Origin: Patescibacteria group bacterium
GTDB lineage: Bacteria > Patescibacteriota > Minisyncoccia > Phycocordibacterales > Phycocordibacteraceae
Direction of reading: 5' to 3'
DNA length: 38,682 nucleotides
Assembly: GCA_018971265.1 (NCBI GenBank)
Contig: JAGXBE010000003.1
Location: 1 to 38,682, forward strand
Made by a program: the position numbers and the translations under genes. Positions within the stretch are counted from its first letter, which is position 1, and each line of letters opens with the position of its first letter. Of this stretch, positions 5,236 to 29,700 are shown in pieces. The notes under the pieces are model-generated. The model was not told the DNA's origin and searched no databases. It saw nothing but the letters and a program-made list of their open reading frames with translations.

Positions 5236-5879
5236 GGCGAAGAGGTTCCTGTTGTTGTCGAAGCGGCAGAAACGGACGCGGACGGAGAAAATGCGGTGAG
5301 CTTCGGGTCGAGCGTCGCAACAAACGCGAAGGAAACCGAGTTGTCTTTTCTCACGACGATATTCGAAAAAATGGCGTTCTTAATCCGGCCGTCCGCCGCG
5401 AAAACAGTGGAGGTGACCGCCAAGGCATTGAAACTTTTTGCTACTCCGGACCCCTCGACATTCATCTTCCCGGACGTGTCAAACGAGAGATGCAATGAAG
5501 TAAAACTGACGGTGGCGGGGATAATCGCCTCAATCAGATTGAAGAAGCCCGAAAGCGCGATATGGTTCGCGAGCAGGGTCTGCCCTGAACTAAGGCGATT
5601 GTGCAGTCGTACAAAGCCGTCAACAACCGCCGGATCCACGGCTGCTTCCGCTTTTGCCAGCTCTGCATCTTTCGCAGATCGAGTTGCGGCAAGAACTCTG
5701 CCGTAGAGGAAAACACCGATTGCAAGCGCGAAAACAAAAAAAAGAACTGCGTATCCGAAAAAACCGAACGCGCCGGCGTAGTCGCCGCGAAACCGACGTG
5801 CCGAAGCGGATGCCGAGTAAGGAACGAATGAAGTCGGTATCGTTGGAGGAAGAGCCATTTCGTTTTCAGTATACGCCAT
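5232..5879 (-). CDS. PilN-like type IV pilus assembly protein
   Basis: One TM (GAFGFFGYAVLFFVFALAIGVFLYGRVL), position after pilM; 4-nt overlap with PilO-like gene. Confidence 0.65.
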   Translation of the reverse strand: MAYTENEMALPPTIPTSFVPYSASASARRFRGDYAGAFGFFGYAVLFFVFALAIGVFLYGRVLAATRSAKDAELAKAEAAVDPAVVDGFVRLHNRLSSGQTLLANHIALSGFFNLIEAIIPATVSFTSLHLSFDTSGKMNVEGSGVAKSFNALAVTSTVFAADGRIKNAIFSNIVVRKDNSVSFAFVATLDPKLTAFSPSASVSAASTTTGTSSP

Positions 5880-7027: not shown

Positions 7028-7648
7028 ATGGGGCGCTGGCTCGACATCCTCTTTCCTCCGCGCGCGGACGAAGTCGCGTTACGCGGCGTCTCAAACGATG
7101 CTTTCATCGCGCTTATCGCTCCGCGCATGACGCTCAAAACGCATCCGGGCACGGTCACGCTCCTTCCCTTTTCTGTCGTTCCGGTACGCGCCGTGCTCCA
7201 TGAGGCAAAATATCACGGCAGTGAAAAGGCATTTGCCCTTCTTTCTGCCGTGCTCGCCGAATACTTGCGTGATGCCGACGAAGCGGGACGTACGACACCC
7301 TCCGTCTCTCTTGTACCAATGCCGCTCGGTACGCAGCGGCGTAAAGAACGCGGCTACAATCAGGTCGAAGAAATTGCGAATCGTACCCTACGAGAGCTCG
7401 ACGGCATCACGATTGACACGACGCTTCTCGCGCGCACGCGCGAGACCGCTTCGCAGGTCTCACTTCCCAGGAAGAAACGCGAGGAAAATATGCGGGGAGC
7501 ATTTGGGACGACACGCCTTGCAGATTCCGCTTCCACGTACATACTTCTTGACGACGTCCTTACTACCGGAGCGACGCTGCAAGCTGCAATTGATACGCTC
7601 GCGGCCGCCGGCGCTGTCCACATCATCCCGCTCGCCCTTGCTCATTGA
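7028..7648 (+). CDS. ComF-family phosphoribosyltransferase
   Basis: KYHG, VPMPLGTQRRKERGYNQVEEIA, ILLDDVLTTGATLQAA PRPP motif. Confidence 0.85.
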   Translation: MGRWLDILFPPRADEVALRGVSNDAFIALIAPRMTLKTHPGTVTLLPFSVVPVRAVLHEAKYHGSEKAFALLSAVLAEYLRDADEAGRTTPSVSLVPMPLGTQRRKERGYNQVEEIANRTLRELDGITIDTTLLARTRETASQVSLPRKKREENMRGAFGTTRLADSASTYILLDDVLTTGATLQAAIDTLAAAGAVHIIPLALAH

Positions 7649-7774: not shown

Positions 7775-8263
7775 ATGAAAAACTCATCTACTTGGACCTG
7801 GGTCGCGGTCGCGGCCATTGTTGTGTTCGGCGTATGGCTCCTCATGAGAGGTCCCGCAGCAACCACGCAAGCTCCCGGCACTTACAATGCTGCGGGTTCC
7901 GCTACCCCGGCTCCCGACTCGATGAGTGCCACAAACAGTGGCACCCATACCTCGACTACCGGCGCAAAGCCAGTCGTCACTACCGCGGGATTCGCTTCGG
8001 TCTCAAGCACCACAGCCGTCGTTGTCGGTACGGTTATTCCAAATGGTGCTCGCACGACCTACTGGTTTGAGTATGGTCCTACGATGTCCTACGGATCCTT
8101 TGCCGACACGATGTCGGCAAATGCCGGATATAAAGAAGTGGGCGCTGCTGCATACATCACTGGTCTTAAGCCGAATACAGAGTACTATTTCCGCATCGGC
8201 GCTGAAAATGCTTATGGGCGCACGTATGGCACACAGTATAAATTCATCACTGCGAGCAAGTAG
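7775..8263 (+). CDS. Secreted/membrane-anchored FN3-like domain protein
   Basis: N-terminal TM (WVAVAAIVVFGVWLLM), Thr/Ser/Ala-rich linker, ITGLKPNTEYYFRIGAENAYGRTYGTQYKF (FN3-type). Confidence 0.7.
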   Translation: MKNSSTWTWVAVAAIVVFGVWLLMRGPAATTQAPGTYNAAGSATPAPDSMSATNSGTHTSTTGAKPVVTTAGFASVSSTTAVVVGTVIPNGARTTYWFEYGPTMSYGSFADTMSANAGYKEVGAAAYITGLKPNTEYYFRIGAENAYGRTYGTQYKFITASK

Positions 8264-8282
8264 ATGGATTGCTTGCCCGAGA

Positions 8283-8312
8283 CCGCTGCCTCCCGAGGGA
8301 GGCAGCGGTTTT
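8283..8312 (+). terminator. Rho-independent terminator
   Basis: CCGCTGCCTCC-CGAG-GGAGGCAGCGG-TTTT. Confidence 0.9.
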
Positions 8313-8368
8313 CGTGTATAGAGAGCCGTCTAGTCCTTGGCGGATAAATTTGATATTCTGTTTCAAAC

Positions 8369-8455
8369 GGAGACGTGGCTGAGTGGTCGAAAGCACCTCG
8401 CTGCTAATGAGGCAGGGGAGAAATCCTCTCGTGGGTTCAAATCCCACCGTCTCCG
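8369..8455 (+). tRNA. tRNA-Ser (anticodon GCU), no encoded CCA
   Basis: Acceptor GGAGACG/CGTCTCC, anticodon loop CTGCTAA, variable arm, T-arm GTGGGTTCAAATCCCAC; 87 nt. Confidence 0.95.
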
Positions 8456-27230: not shown

Positions 27231-27421
27231 ATCAGGATCGTTGCTGTTCCCGGTCTGAATAGTCTGGTAAGACGCGGGCGGTCCAGTAGAGAACAGCAAC
27301 GGTCCTGAGAAGGATGTTCCTCGGTCACTCAGGAGCAGACAGGGGTCTCGGACACCGAACGATACTCCGGTTTAAGGGAACAAATGGATATCCCCCGAGC
27401 TAGCTCAAAAGCTGCTCGGGG
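27231..27421 (+). ncRNA. Putative structured RNA downstream of rplT (independent sRNA or 3'-UTR element)
   Basis: 18-bp stem TCAGGATCGTTGCTGTTC (27232-27249)/GAACAGCAACGGTCCTGA (27291-27308, one G-T pair); competing TCCTGAG/CTCAGGA stem; ends in intrinsic terminator. Confidence 0.55.
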
Positions 27422-27432
27422 CTTTTATCTTT
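27393..27432 (+). terminator. Strong intrinsic terminator
   Basis: CCCCGAGC-T-AGCT-CAAA-AGCT-GCTCGGGG then CTTTTATCTTTTT. Confidence 0.9.
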
Positions 27433-28841
27433 TTCACCAAATCCTTGGTAATCTCCCAGGTCTGGCCCATCTCGGGGACGATGGCGCGGGCGTCGGCTCC
27501 CCTTCTGGAGTCCTGATGCAGGAGGTAATCGTGAATACGCTGCGCAAGGAAACGCTCGGCGGCGGGCTCGCCAATCGCGGTGAAAATGGCTTTCGTGCGC
27601 TTTCCGGAAAGCGCCGCCTCGGCAAATTCTAAAAGACCGTCGCGGTCGGCGTGCGCCGACCACCCTTCGAGGATTTCTACTTTCGCACGCAAGCGAACTT
27701 CAAGACCACCAAGGCGCACGGAGCGCGCGCCTTCTGCCATGCGCCGTCCCGGGCTTCCAGGCGCCTGGTAGCCGACAATAACGAGGGTCGTCGCGGGATC
27801 GGGAAGATACTTCTGCTCCCAGAGGCCGATGCGGCCGCCGTGACTCATCCCGGCGCCGGCGATGATGATTTTTGGATTCGGCGTTTTCTCTATCTCCTCT
27901 GACTCCCTGCGCGAAAGCGTCTTGTGCAGGAACGGGAATTCAAATATGCTCTTTTCCCGTCTCATCTCCTCTTCCGCCTCGTTCTTGAAGTAGGTCGACC
28001 CCCACTTCTCATACACTTCAGTCACGTGGATGGCGAGCGGCGAGTCAAGAAAAACCGGCACCCTTGGAAGCTCTCCTGCGGCGAAGAAATTCGAGAGTTC
28101 ATAAAGCATGAGCTGAGTGCGTTCGAGCGAAAAGGCGGGGATGAGCACCGCTCCGCCTTTTTTTATCGCCTTTGCTAGCGTGTCTCGAAGGAGCTCGACA
28201 CGGCGCCGCTGCGCCGGGTGGAGCCGGTCGCCGTAGACGCTCTCCATGACGAGGGCGTCCGCATCCGGTACCGGCTCCCAGTCGGGCAAGAGCGGCGAAG
28301 GCGAATTACCGATGTCGCCCGTAAGTGCCACAGCAACGCCGTCTTCGTCTTTTATCCGCACGCTCGCCGAGCCGAGGATATGGCCGGTGTTCCGCAGGTA
28401 AACGGAGAGACCGGGCGCAATTTCTTTTTCGGTGTGGTACGCAAGCGTCTCTATAAGCGAAAAGGTTGTGTCGACATCTTTTTCCTCGTAAAGAGGCGCT
28501 ACGCCGCGCCGCTCGGCGTCTTGATCGATGATGCCGACCGAGTCGCGCAGGATGAGTTCGGCGATATCTTTTGTGGGCGGCGTCATGAAAATTTTCCCGC
28601 GGAAACCACTTCGAACGAGTTTCGGGATGCGGCCGACATGATCAAGATGCGCATGCGTGAGGACGAGCGCGTCGACCGCTGTCACGTCGTAGGGAAATAG
28701 TCCATAGACGCACTCTTCGCAGAAATCGGCGCCCTGTTCGATGCCGCAGTCAACGAGGATTTTCCCGCGCGCACCTTCAATAAGGAAATTTGAGCCGGTT
28801 ACCTTCCCCGCTCCGCCATAAAAACTCACGCGTAATGCCAT
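27405..28841 (-). CDS. MBL-fold beta-CASP/RMMBL exonuclease (CPSF73/Ysh1-like)
   Basis: LVLTHAHLDHVGRIPKLV, GHILGSASVRI, LTGDIGNSPSPLL, VLIPAFSLERTQLMLYEL, GAGMSHGGRIGLWE, WSAHADRDGLLEF. Confidence 0.92.
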   Translation of the reverse strand: MALRVSFYGGAGKVTGSNFLIEGARGKILVDCGIEQGADFCEECVYGLFPYDVTAVDALVLTHAHLDHVGRIPKLVRSGFRGKIFMTPPTKDIAELILRDSVGIIDQDAERRGVAPLYEEKDVDTTFSLIETLAYHTEKEIAPGLSVYLRNTGHILGSASVRIKDEDGVAVALTGDIGNSPSPLLPDWEPVPDADALVMESVYGDRLHPAQRRRVELLRDTLAKAIKKGGAVLIPAFSLERTQLMLYELSNFFAAGELPRVPVFLDSPLAIHVTEVYEKWGSTYFKNEAEEEMRREKSIFEFPFLHKTLSRRESEEIEKTPNPKIIIAGAGMSHGGRIGLWEQKYLPDPATTLVIVGYQAPGSPGRRMAEGARSVRLGGLEVRLRAKVEILEGWSAHADRDGLLEFAEAALSGKRTKAIFTAIGEPAAERFLAQRIHDYLLHQDSRRGADARAIVPEMGQTWEITKDLVKKIKAPSSF

Positions 28842-28869
28842 ACGCGCACTCTAGCATAACGCTTCCACA

Positions 28870-28900
28870 AAATATCCCGTCTCATTGAGACGGGATTTTT
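28870..28900 (-). terminator. Intrinsic terminator (largely symmetric)
   Basis: ATCCCGTCTC-AAT-GAGACGGGAT then ATTTTG on minus strand. Confidence 0.8.
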
Positions 28901-28902
28901 CG

Positions 28903-29044
28903 TGGAGCCATTCCCTGATGCAACTTCATTTTGCCAGGTGGGGTCCCCGCGCGGTAGCGCAGGAACGAGTTACGCTCGCATTGCTACCGACGACTTCGAA
29001 ACCCCGAGAATACGGCAAGTTGCGTTTAAAAAGAGTGGCTCCAT
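28903..29044 (-). ncRNA. Putative novel rod-like structured RNA with own promoter and terminator
   Basis: Nested helices TGGAGCCA/TGGCTCCA (28903-28910/29036-29043), GCAACTT/AAGTTGC (28920-28926/29017-29023), GGGGT/ACCCC, GGTAGC/GCTACC, CGAG/CTCG; extended -10 TGGTATACT at 29058-29050 (minus) 6 nt upstream of helix 1; terminator 28870-28900. Confidence 0.55.
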
Positions 29045-29049
29045 CTGAA

Positions 29050-29058
29050 AGTATACCA
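29050..29058 (-). promoter_or_regulatory. Extended -10 promoter element for putative ncRNA
   Basis: TGG-TATACT on minus strand, TTCAGA spacer, then helix-1 strand TGGAGCCA. Confidence 0.5.
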
Positions 29059-29115
29059 GTGCTGTCAAGCGACGGTTGTGGAGAATTATGTGCACATCCT
29101 GTGCATTACGGTGTA

Positions 29116-29700
29116 TTACTCACCGTGCCGTTTGTAGGAATAGGTTTTCCCTATACCAAACCAGTGCTCAATTTCGTGTACGGCTTCTTCGGGCGTCTCG
29201 GACGCGTGGATGATGTTCGCCACCGCACGCTTCTCGGCGTTCGCGAGCGCAGGAGAATCGTTTGAAAAATCTCCGCGAATGGTACCCATGTCGGCCTGGT
29301 ACGGCATAGTCGGCCCGCAGATTTTACGCACCATGTCGACCGCGTGCGTACCTTCGATCACCATTTTCACAAGAGGAGCGGAGAGCATGTAGTCGACGAG
29401 CCATTTGCGAATTTCGGGACCTATTTCCTCCGGTGCGGTCGTACCGAAATCTTCCATCGCGTCGAACTGATATTTTTCATAAGTGGCGAGTGTCTTCTCG
29501 CCGAGTCGCTTCACCCATACGGCATCTTTCGGGTAGTGGGCGTCGATTTCTTCAAAGGTCGGCTGAAACATCTCGAGCGCGACGATTTTCAGGTCGCGCT
29601 GCTCGAAGCGTTTGATAATCTCGCCAACAAGGCCCTTTTTCACCCCGTCGGGCTTCACCATCACATACGTTCTCTCTTCTTTCGGATTCTTATTCGCCAT
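29116..29700 (-). CDS. ndk: Nucleoside diphosphate kinase (enlarged form, about 194 aa)
   Basis: TYVMVKPDGVKKGLVGEIIKRFEQRDLKIVALEM, EGTHAVDMVRKICGPTMP, GTIRGDFSNDSPALANAEKRAVANIIHASETPEEAVHEI. Confidence 0.93.
   Translation of the reverse strand: MANKNPKEERTYVMVKPDGVKKGLVGEIIKRFEQRDLKIVALEMFQPTFEEIDAHYPKDAVWVKRLGEKTLATYEKYQFDAMEDFGTTAPEEIGPEIRKWLVDYMLSAPLVKMVIEGTHAVDMVRKICGPTMPYQADMGTIRGDFSNDSPALANAEKRAVANIIHASETPEEAVHEIEHWFGIGKTYSYKRHGE

Follow-up and report, generated by a model that had tools for sequence, protein, structure and literature searches.

The window analyzed here, a stretch of 38,682 nucleotides from a patescibacterial contig, carries on its minus strand a gene that very probably encodes a highly diverged 6S RNA (ssrS); from sequence comparison, we put the probability of this reading at roughly 0.9. 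The proposed homology is based on matches to the Rfam 6S model RF00013 that lie below its cut-off, combined with a bridging covariance model (R2), and the copy in the window is joined to these through its orthologues. 6S RNA is a known kind of RNA, described in almost every bacterial genome (PMC8414754), and its presence in Patescibacteria is unsurprising in itself. Within the open-licence PMC literature, no paper on 6S RNA in Patescibacteria or CPR was found; relative to that literature, the new elements are the detection of 6S RNA in this phylum, the size of the gap left by Rfam, an altered bubble in the genus and a phased upstream element.

Gene organization, fold and covariation

The RNA gene is located between ndk and a beta-CASP nuclease gene, both identified by Pfam assignment. 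The features of the locus are as follows.

29116-29700: ndk, on one flank of the RNA gene
29077-29085, minus strand: DnaA-box-like element TTCTCCACA, phased about 30 nt ahead of the -10 region
29063-29068, minus strand: TTGACA, 7 nt before the -10 region, a non-standard spacing
29050-29058, minus strand: -10 region TGG-TATACT of the putative 6S promoter, from sequence and conservation in homologues
28903-29043, minus strand: body of the probable 6S (ssrS-like) RNA, matched by covariance model R1 at 106.7 bits (model positions 1-143), the window copy being one of R1's own training rows
29030-29043, minus strand: outer closing stem, 5' strand, pairing with 28903-28916
29014-29023, minus strand: downstream (P2-like) helix, 5' strand GCAACUUGCC, predicted pRNA template
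29006-29013, minus strand: 5' central bubble GUAUUCUC, where pRNA synthesis would start if the RNA works like 6S-1 (PMC8876501)
28940-29005, minus strand: apical (internal) stem GGGGU.../...ACCCC, from the minimum-energy fold and the alignment
28933-28939, minus strand: 3' central bubble ACCU, then GGC, which pairs with GCC of the downstream helix
28920-28926, minus strand: downstream helix, 3' strand AAGUUGC, which can also pair with the upstream GGCAA once the template strand is occupied
28903-28916, minus strand: outer closing stem, 3' strand, pairing with 29030-29043
28868-28896, minus strand: intrinsic terminator, a 10-bp stem followed by ATTTT
27405-28841, minus strand: beta-CASP nuclease gene, directly downstream of the RNA

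The body measures about 141 nt, or about 176 nt with the terminator hairpin, in line with the unit of about 140 nt plus terminator given in a preliminary description of this DNA. That description had suggested folding the region against shuffled sequence as a check. Folding of 28870-29044, terminator hairpin included, yielded -75.5 kcal/mol, compared with -50.8 ± 4.1 kcal/mol for shuffled sequences (z = -6.08), and none of the 200 shuffles was as good; fold energies of the homologues are likewise low. Helix 1 begins at 29043, 6 nt after the -10 region as had been claimed, and pairs TGGAGCCA (29043-29036) with TGGCTCCA (28910-28903). The nested GGGGT/ACCCC, GGTAGC/GCTACC and CGAG/CTCG helices listed earlier are all found in the minimum-energy fold, and GCAACTT (29023-29017) pairs with AAGTTGC (28926-28920). 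The 5' central bubble is largely unpaired in the ensemble; with GCC/GGC paired, the whole central bubble would measure only 8 + 4 nt. The RNA is thus predicted to form a rod with a closing stem, a single-stranded central bubble and an apical stem with internal loops, which is the architecture of 6S RNA.

A blastn survey of 93 genomes of the same genus retrieved homologues that are conserved at both ends and variable in between, the window copy sharing 71-87% identity with those of other genus members. Covariance model R1 matches 79 of these 93 genomes, nearly always once each, and gives no match in the remaining 14. One genome (G067) has three R1 matches (C59:854-995, C55:11166-11307 and C21:1128-1326) and a contamination of 5%; these are either real paralogues or the product of a mixed-strain assembly. 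R1 also gives a 21-bit match on the plus strand at the same place, because the rod is symmetrical. Synteny is strong: ndk lies beside the homologue at 57 of 57 loci and the beta-CASP gene at 53 of 57, many of the 57 being the same places fetched twice.

Covariation was evaluated on alignment A3, which comprises 27 genus homologues with a hand-set structure of 40 pairs and was derived from a first MAFFT alignment by cutting the ends and dropping one row. Owing to four misaligned rows, RNAalifold failed to recover the outer closing stem from that first alignment. In A3, 93.7% of paired cells are actually paired and 17 of the 40 pairs show changes on both sides. Cells with such changes number 84, compared with 25 in shuffled alignments and 4-28 when the partner strand is slid; the covariation score is 0.296, against 0.163 for shuffled and 0.05-0.10 for slid structures. 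Since the shuffles do not preserve relatedness, the slide control is the one that matters. Compensatory changes occur in most helices. The outer closing stem (13 model pairs, 94.6% paired) has them at 5 pairs, and the GCC/GGC part of the downstream helix (90% paired) at one, while GCAACUU/AAGUUGC is 100% paired and almost invariant in the 27 sequences. By these measures, covariation among homologues, which the preliminary description had proposed to look for, is present.

The 10-bp terminator stem (28896-28874, minus strand) and its ATTTT tail lie where an intrinsic terminator had been placed, 3' of the fold, and nearly all of the homologues examined have a terminator-like hairpin after the RNA. 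The hairpin at 28874-28896 could act as a terminator on either strand, being followed by TTTT in the plus-strand reading; the only plus-strand frame at this hairpin looks spurious. Scanned against Rfam at E ≤ 5, the region returned only BSnc119, mir-4524 and anti-hemB, chance-like matches on the terminator hairpin that we discarded. The sole overlapping open reading frame of at least 60 aa, a TTG-start frame of 126 aa on the opposite strand that runs on antisense into ndk, is treated as spurious, in keeping with the earlier remark that no reading frame explains the region. Orthology, synteny and covariation agree with the preliminary description in supporting a structured ncRNA that is encoded as a separate gene and has its own promoter, fold and terminator. 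As judged by these sequence signals, the gene has the independence expected of a 6S gene, with a promoter, a terminator and usually one copy per genome.

Relationship to 6S RNA

At gathering thresholds, an Rfam search of the whole window returned only one tRNA and no 6S RNA. The gathering cut-off of RF00013, 46.4 bits, is a curator's threshold and no biological trait; it is reached neither in the genome under study nor in the same-genus genomes searched (39 relatives), and the window copy itself is matched by neither RF00013 nor R2. The four best sub-threshold RF00013 matches among the 39 relatives nevertheless coincide in strand and place with four R1 orthologues.

G069:C7:90364-90525, minus strand: RF00013 match of 35.1 bits (E = 4.9e-6, model positions 1-187); R1 match at 90374-90516
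G022:C7:28277-28377, minus strand: sub-threshold RF00013 match; R1 match at 28256-28397
G008:C12:8272-8380, plus strand: sub-threshold RF00013 match; R1 match at 8254-8396
G047:C12:5235-5390, plus strand: sub-threshold RF00013 match; R1 match at 5241-5383

In the RF00013 alignment, GGGAGC...GCACCCACCUGG of the orthologue is paired with the 6S consensus. At the apical stem the relatives read GGGAG.../...CACCC, matching the Rfam 6S consensus GGGagc/gcaCCCACCU, and the signature GGGAG...CACCCACCU(G/A)G around the central bubble is common to these RNAs and 6S RNA. The bubble-flanking 6S motif GGGAgc...gcaCCCACCUgg is found in the genus and in the order-level and phylum sets too; GGG, CCCAC and the T of CCCAC(C/T)T are invariant in the 27 genus homologues. 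Genus and order-level RNAs (L099 and others) have an apical motif in common, GG(U/C)GA...UCCGA, which by eye resembles GGUGAGC...GUCCGA of E. coli 6S RNA (L037:284-466).

Beyond the genus, R1 picks up 16 relatives from other families of the order; in three of them the R1 position also gives a sub-threshold RF00013 match. Over 385 genomes of the phylum, RF00013 gives a match in 32 at E ≤ 0.01, with 4 above the cut-off, and R1 matches six of the RF00013-located phylum loci on the same strand and at the same place (E from 0.004 to 0.25). The bridging model R2 was built from the central bubble and apical core of 13 RF00013-located phylum 6S candidates. All of its training rows lie below the Rfam cut-off and none is a genus member; the four above-cut-off 6S RNAs were left out. 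Two MAFFT alignments of the phylum set (A5 and A6) were out of register at GGGA and no model was built from them. R2 finds all four above-cut-off RNAs, unseen in training, at the same places. It also recovers 16 of 16 order-level R1 relatives (E from 4e-10 to 2e-3) as well as, at E < 0.02, 12 orthologues in the genus (best L014 at 5.9e-7, followed by L020 at 8e-6, then L013, L010, L019 and more), with a single off-target match (E = 0.16) in 161 kb. E-values of R1 and R2 are rough, and the strict filters of large searches drop weak matches. Neither R1 nor R2 matched E. coli 6S RNA. The window copy falls in a small subgroup (L002-L005 and L011) whose apical stem is altered; R1, blastn identity and synteny link the copy to the 6S set. 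No other 6S candidate was found in its genome.

The preliminary description had called the RNA undescribed and had recognized no 6S consensus. The Rfam check that it had proposed gave no 6S match at gathering thresholds, but the sub-threshold matches on orthologues indicate a known family; with R2 recovering the relatives and RF00013 aligning the 6S motif in the orthologues, neither statement is supported. Its hint that the rod recalls 6S RNA, on the other hand, was right.

An unrelated, lineage-specific class of structured ncRNA, as first proposed, would fit the lack of an Rfam match at gathering thresholds and the very strong conservation of GCAACUU...AAGUUGC across the genus; it is nonetheless highly improbable, as RF00013 and the R2 bridge, independently of each other, point in many genomes to the correct strand and position. 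The rod shape is also compatible with Ms1 of Actinobacteria, a structurally related RNA whose gene was found through synteny since sequence search fails (PMC9130861). An analogous RNA, 6S-like in shape but with core polymerase instead of the sigma-70 holoenzyme as its binding partner, would be an improbable reading here, given that the CACCCACCU/GGGAG signature and the RF00013 matches indicate 6S RNA and that 6S is the only Rfam family with a credible match at the locus. At nearly all loci the RNA lies directly upstream of the nuclease gene and on its strand, as a cis-regulatory leader with no free RNA would. We reject this reading, the most improbable that we considered, because terminator-like hairpins follow the RNA; the 6S matches of its distant relatives likewise speak against it.

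As a probable 6S RNA, the molecule shares with the E. coli type (SsrS, RF00013) the closing stem, central bubble and apical stem, as well as CACCU(U/G)G in the 3' bubble. It differs in its shorter body, in scoring below the Rfam cut-off, in a bubble partly closed by GCC/GGC, and in its neighbours (ndk and beta-CASP here, zapA and fau there). With 6S-1 of Bacillus subtilis it has in common a P2-type downstream helix beside the 5' bubble and a pRNA template on the 5' strand (PMC8876501), the latter predicted here. Unlike 6S-1, the free genus RNA lacks a pre-formed 3' bubble hairpin, and its predicted pRNA would begin with A, not G.

Upstream elements and a predicted bubble switch

The -10 region TGG-TATACT is present where the preliminary description had placed it, and 37 of 38 homologues have a -10 box, TATA(C/A/G)T, at the same place. 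TTGACA lies only 7 nt from the -10, so it is not a normal -35, and a pattern scan for a standard promoter found none here. TTGAC recurs at the same 7-nt spacing in 15 of the 38 homologues, while TTGACA and TATAMT, in the other pairs listed for the genus, are mostly separated by about 16-18 nt. TTGACA is perhaps an operator that overlaps the promoter.

Further upstream, a match of at least 7/9 to TTATCCACA starts 28-31 nt ahead of the first -10 base in 24 of 38 homologues, in 18 of them at exactly 29 nt; in a shuffle control, about 4 of 38 had such a match anywhere in 120 nt. The element reads TTNTCC(A/C)CA in the genus, about 29 nt ahead of the -10 of the 6S gene. Across the 93 genus genomes, TTTTCCACA followed at 19-21 nt by TATAMT is found almost solely at 6S genes.

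6S RNA imitates an open promoter with its closing stem, its central bubble and its apical stem: the apical arm holds a -35-like region and the 3' bubble a -10-like one. Synthesis of pRNA begins in the 5' bubble and unwinds the downstream helix (PMC8876501; PMC8414754). In E. coli, a hairpin of the 3' bubble then drives release (PMC8876501). By homology, we infer polymerase binding and pRNA synthesis for the RNA described here. It would mimic an open promoter and bind the housekeeping sigma-70 RNA polymerase holoenzyme, lowering transcription when growth stops; the genome encodes a protein with a sigma-70 region 3. On return of NTPs, the polymerase would start a short pRNA in GUAUUCUC and copy GCAACUUGCC, thereby opening the downstream helix, and the freed 3' strand (GGCAA...UUGC) could close into a hairpin, releasing the RNA.

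In order-level relatives the 3' bubble contains a CCUAG...CUAGGG hairpin, and CCUAG/CUAGG is absent from the free genus RNA; a hairpin facing the 5' bubble is known from several 6S groups, though not from all. When the template strand was blocked in silico, GGCAA of the 3' strand paired with UUGC in all four sequences tried, run with no control; this prediction makes GGCAA/UUGC a plausible release hairpin, one that would be latent here yet correspond to the hairpin formed upon helix opening in E. coli (PMC8876501). A broader proposal, which we consider rather unlikely, is that the genus has both rewired the switch and placed the gene under DnaA control: the bubble hairpin would have been replaced by the near-palindromic GCAACUUGCC, whose two 3' partners could pair with each other on pRNA synthesis, and the phased DnaA-box-like site would control the gene. 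If true, this would couple the global control of transcription in ultra-small bacteria to the initiator of replication.

Detection across the phylum

R2 matches 148 of 385 phylum genomes, against 4 of 385 that exceed the Rfam cut-off, and in the order it matches 92 of 147 genomes; the current Rfam model thus misses almost all phylum copies, and apparent absence of 6S RNA in divergent lineages may partly reflect a detection limit. Adding patescibacterial sequences to the model would enable annotators to find the gene, and transcription shut-down and recovery in tiny bacteria would become testable. Like R1, R2 nearly always matches once per genome. Two genomes have a pair of R2 matches close together on one strand (G509:C47:2428-2497 and 2884-2950; G528:C10:6936-7000 and 7129-7197), possibly tandem 6S genes.
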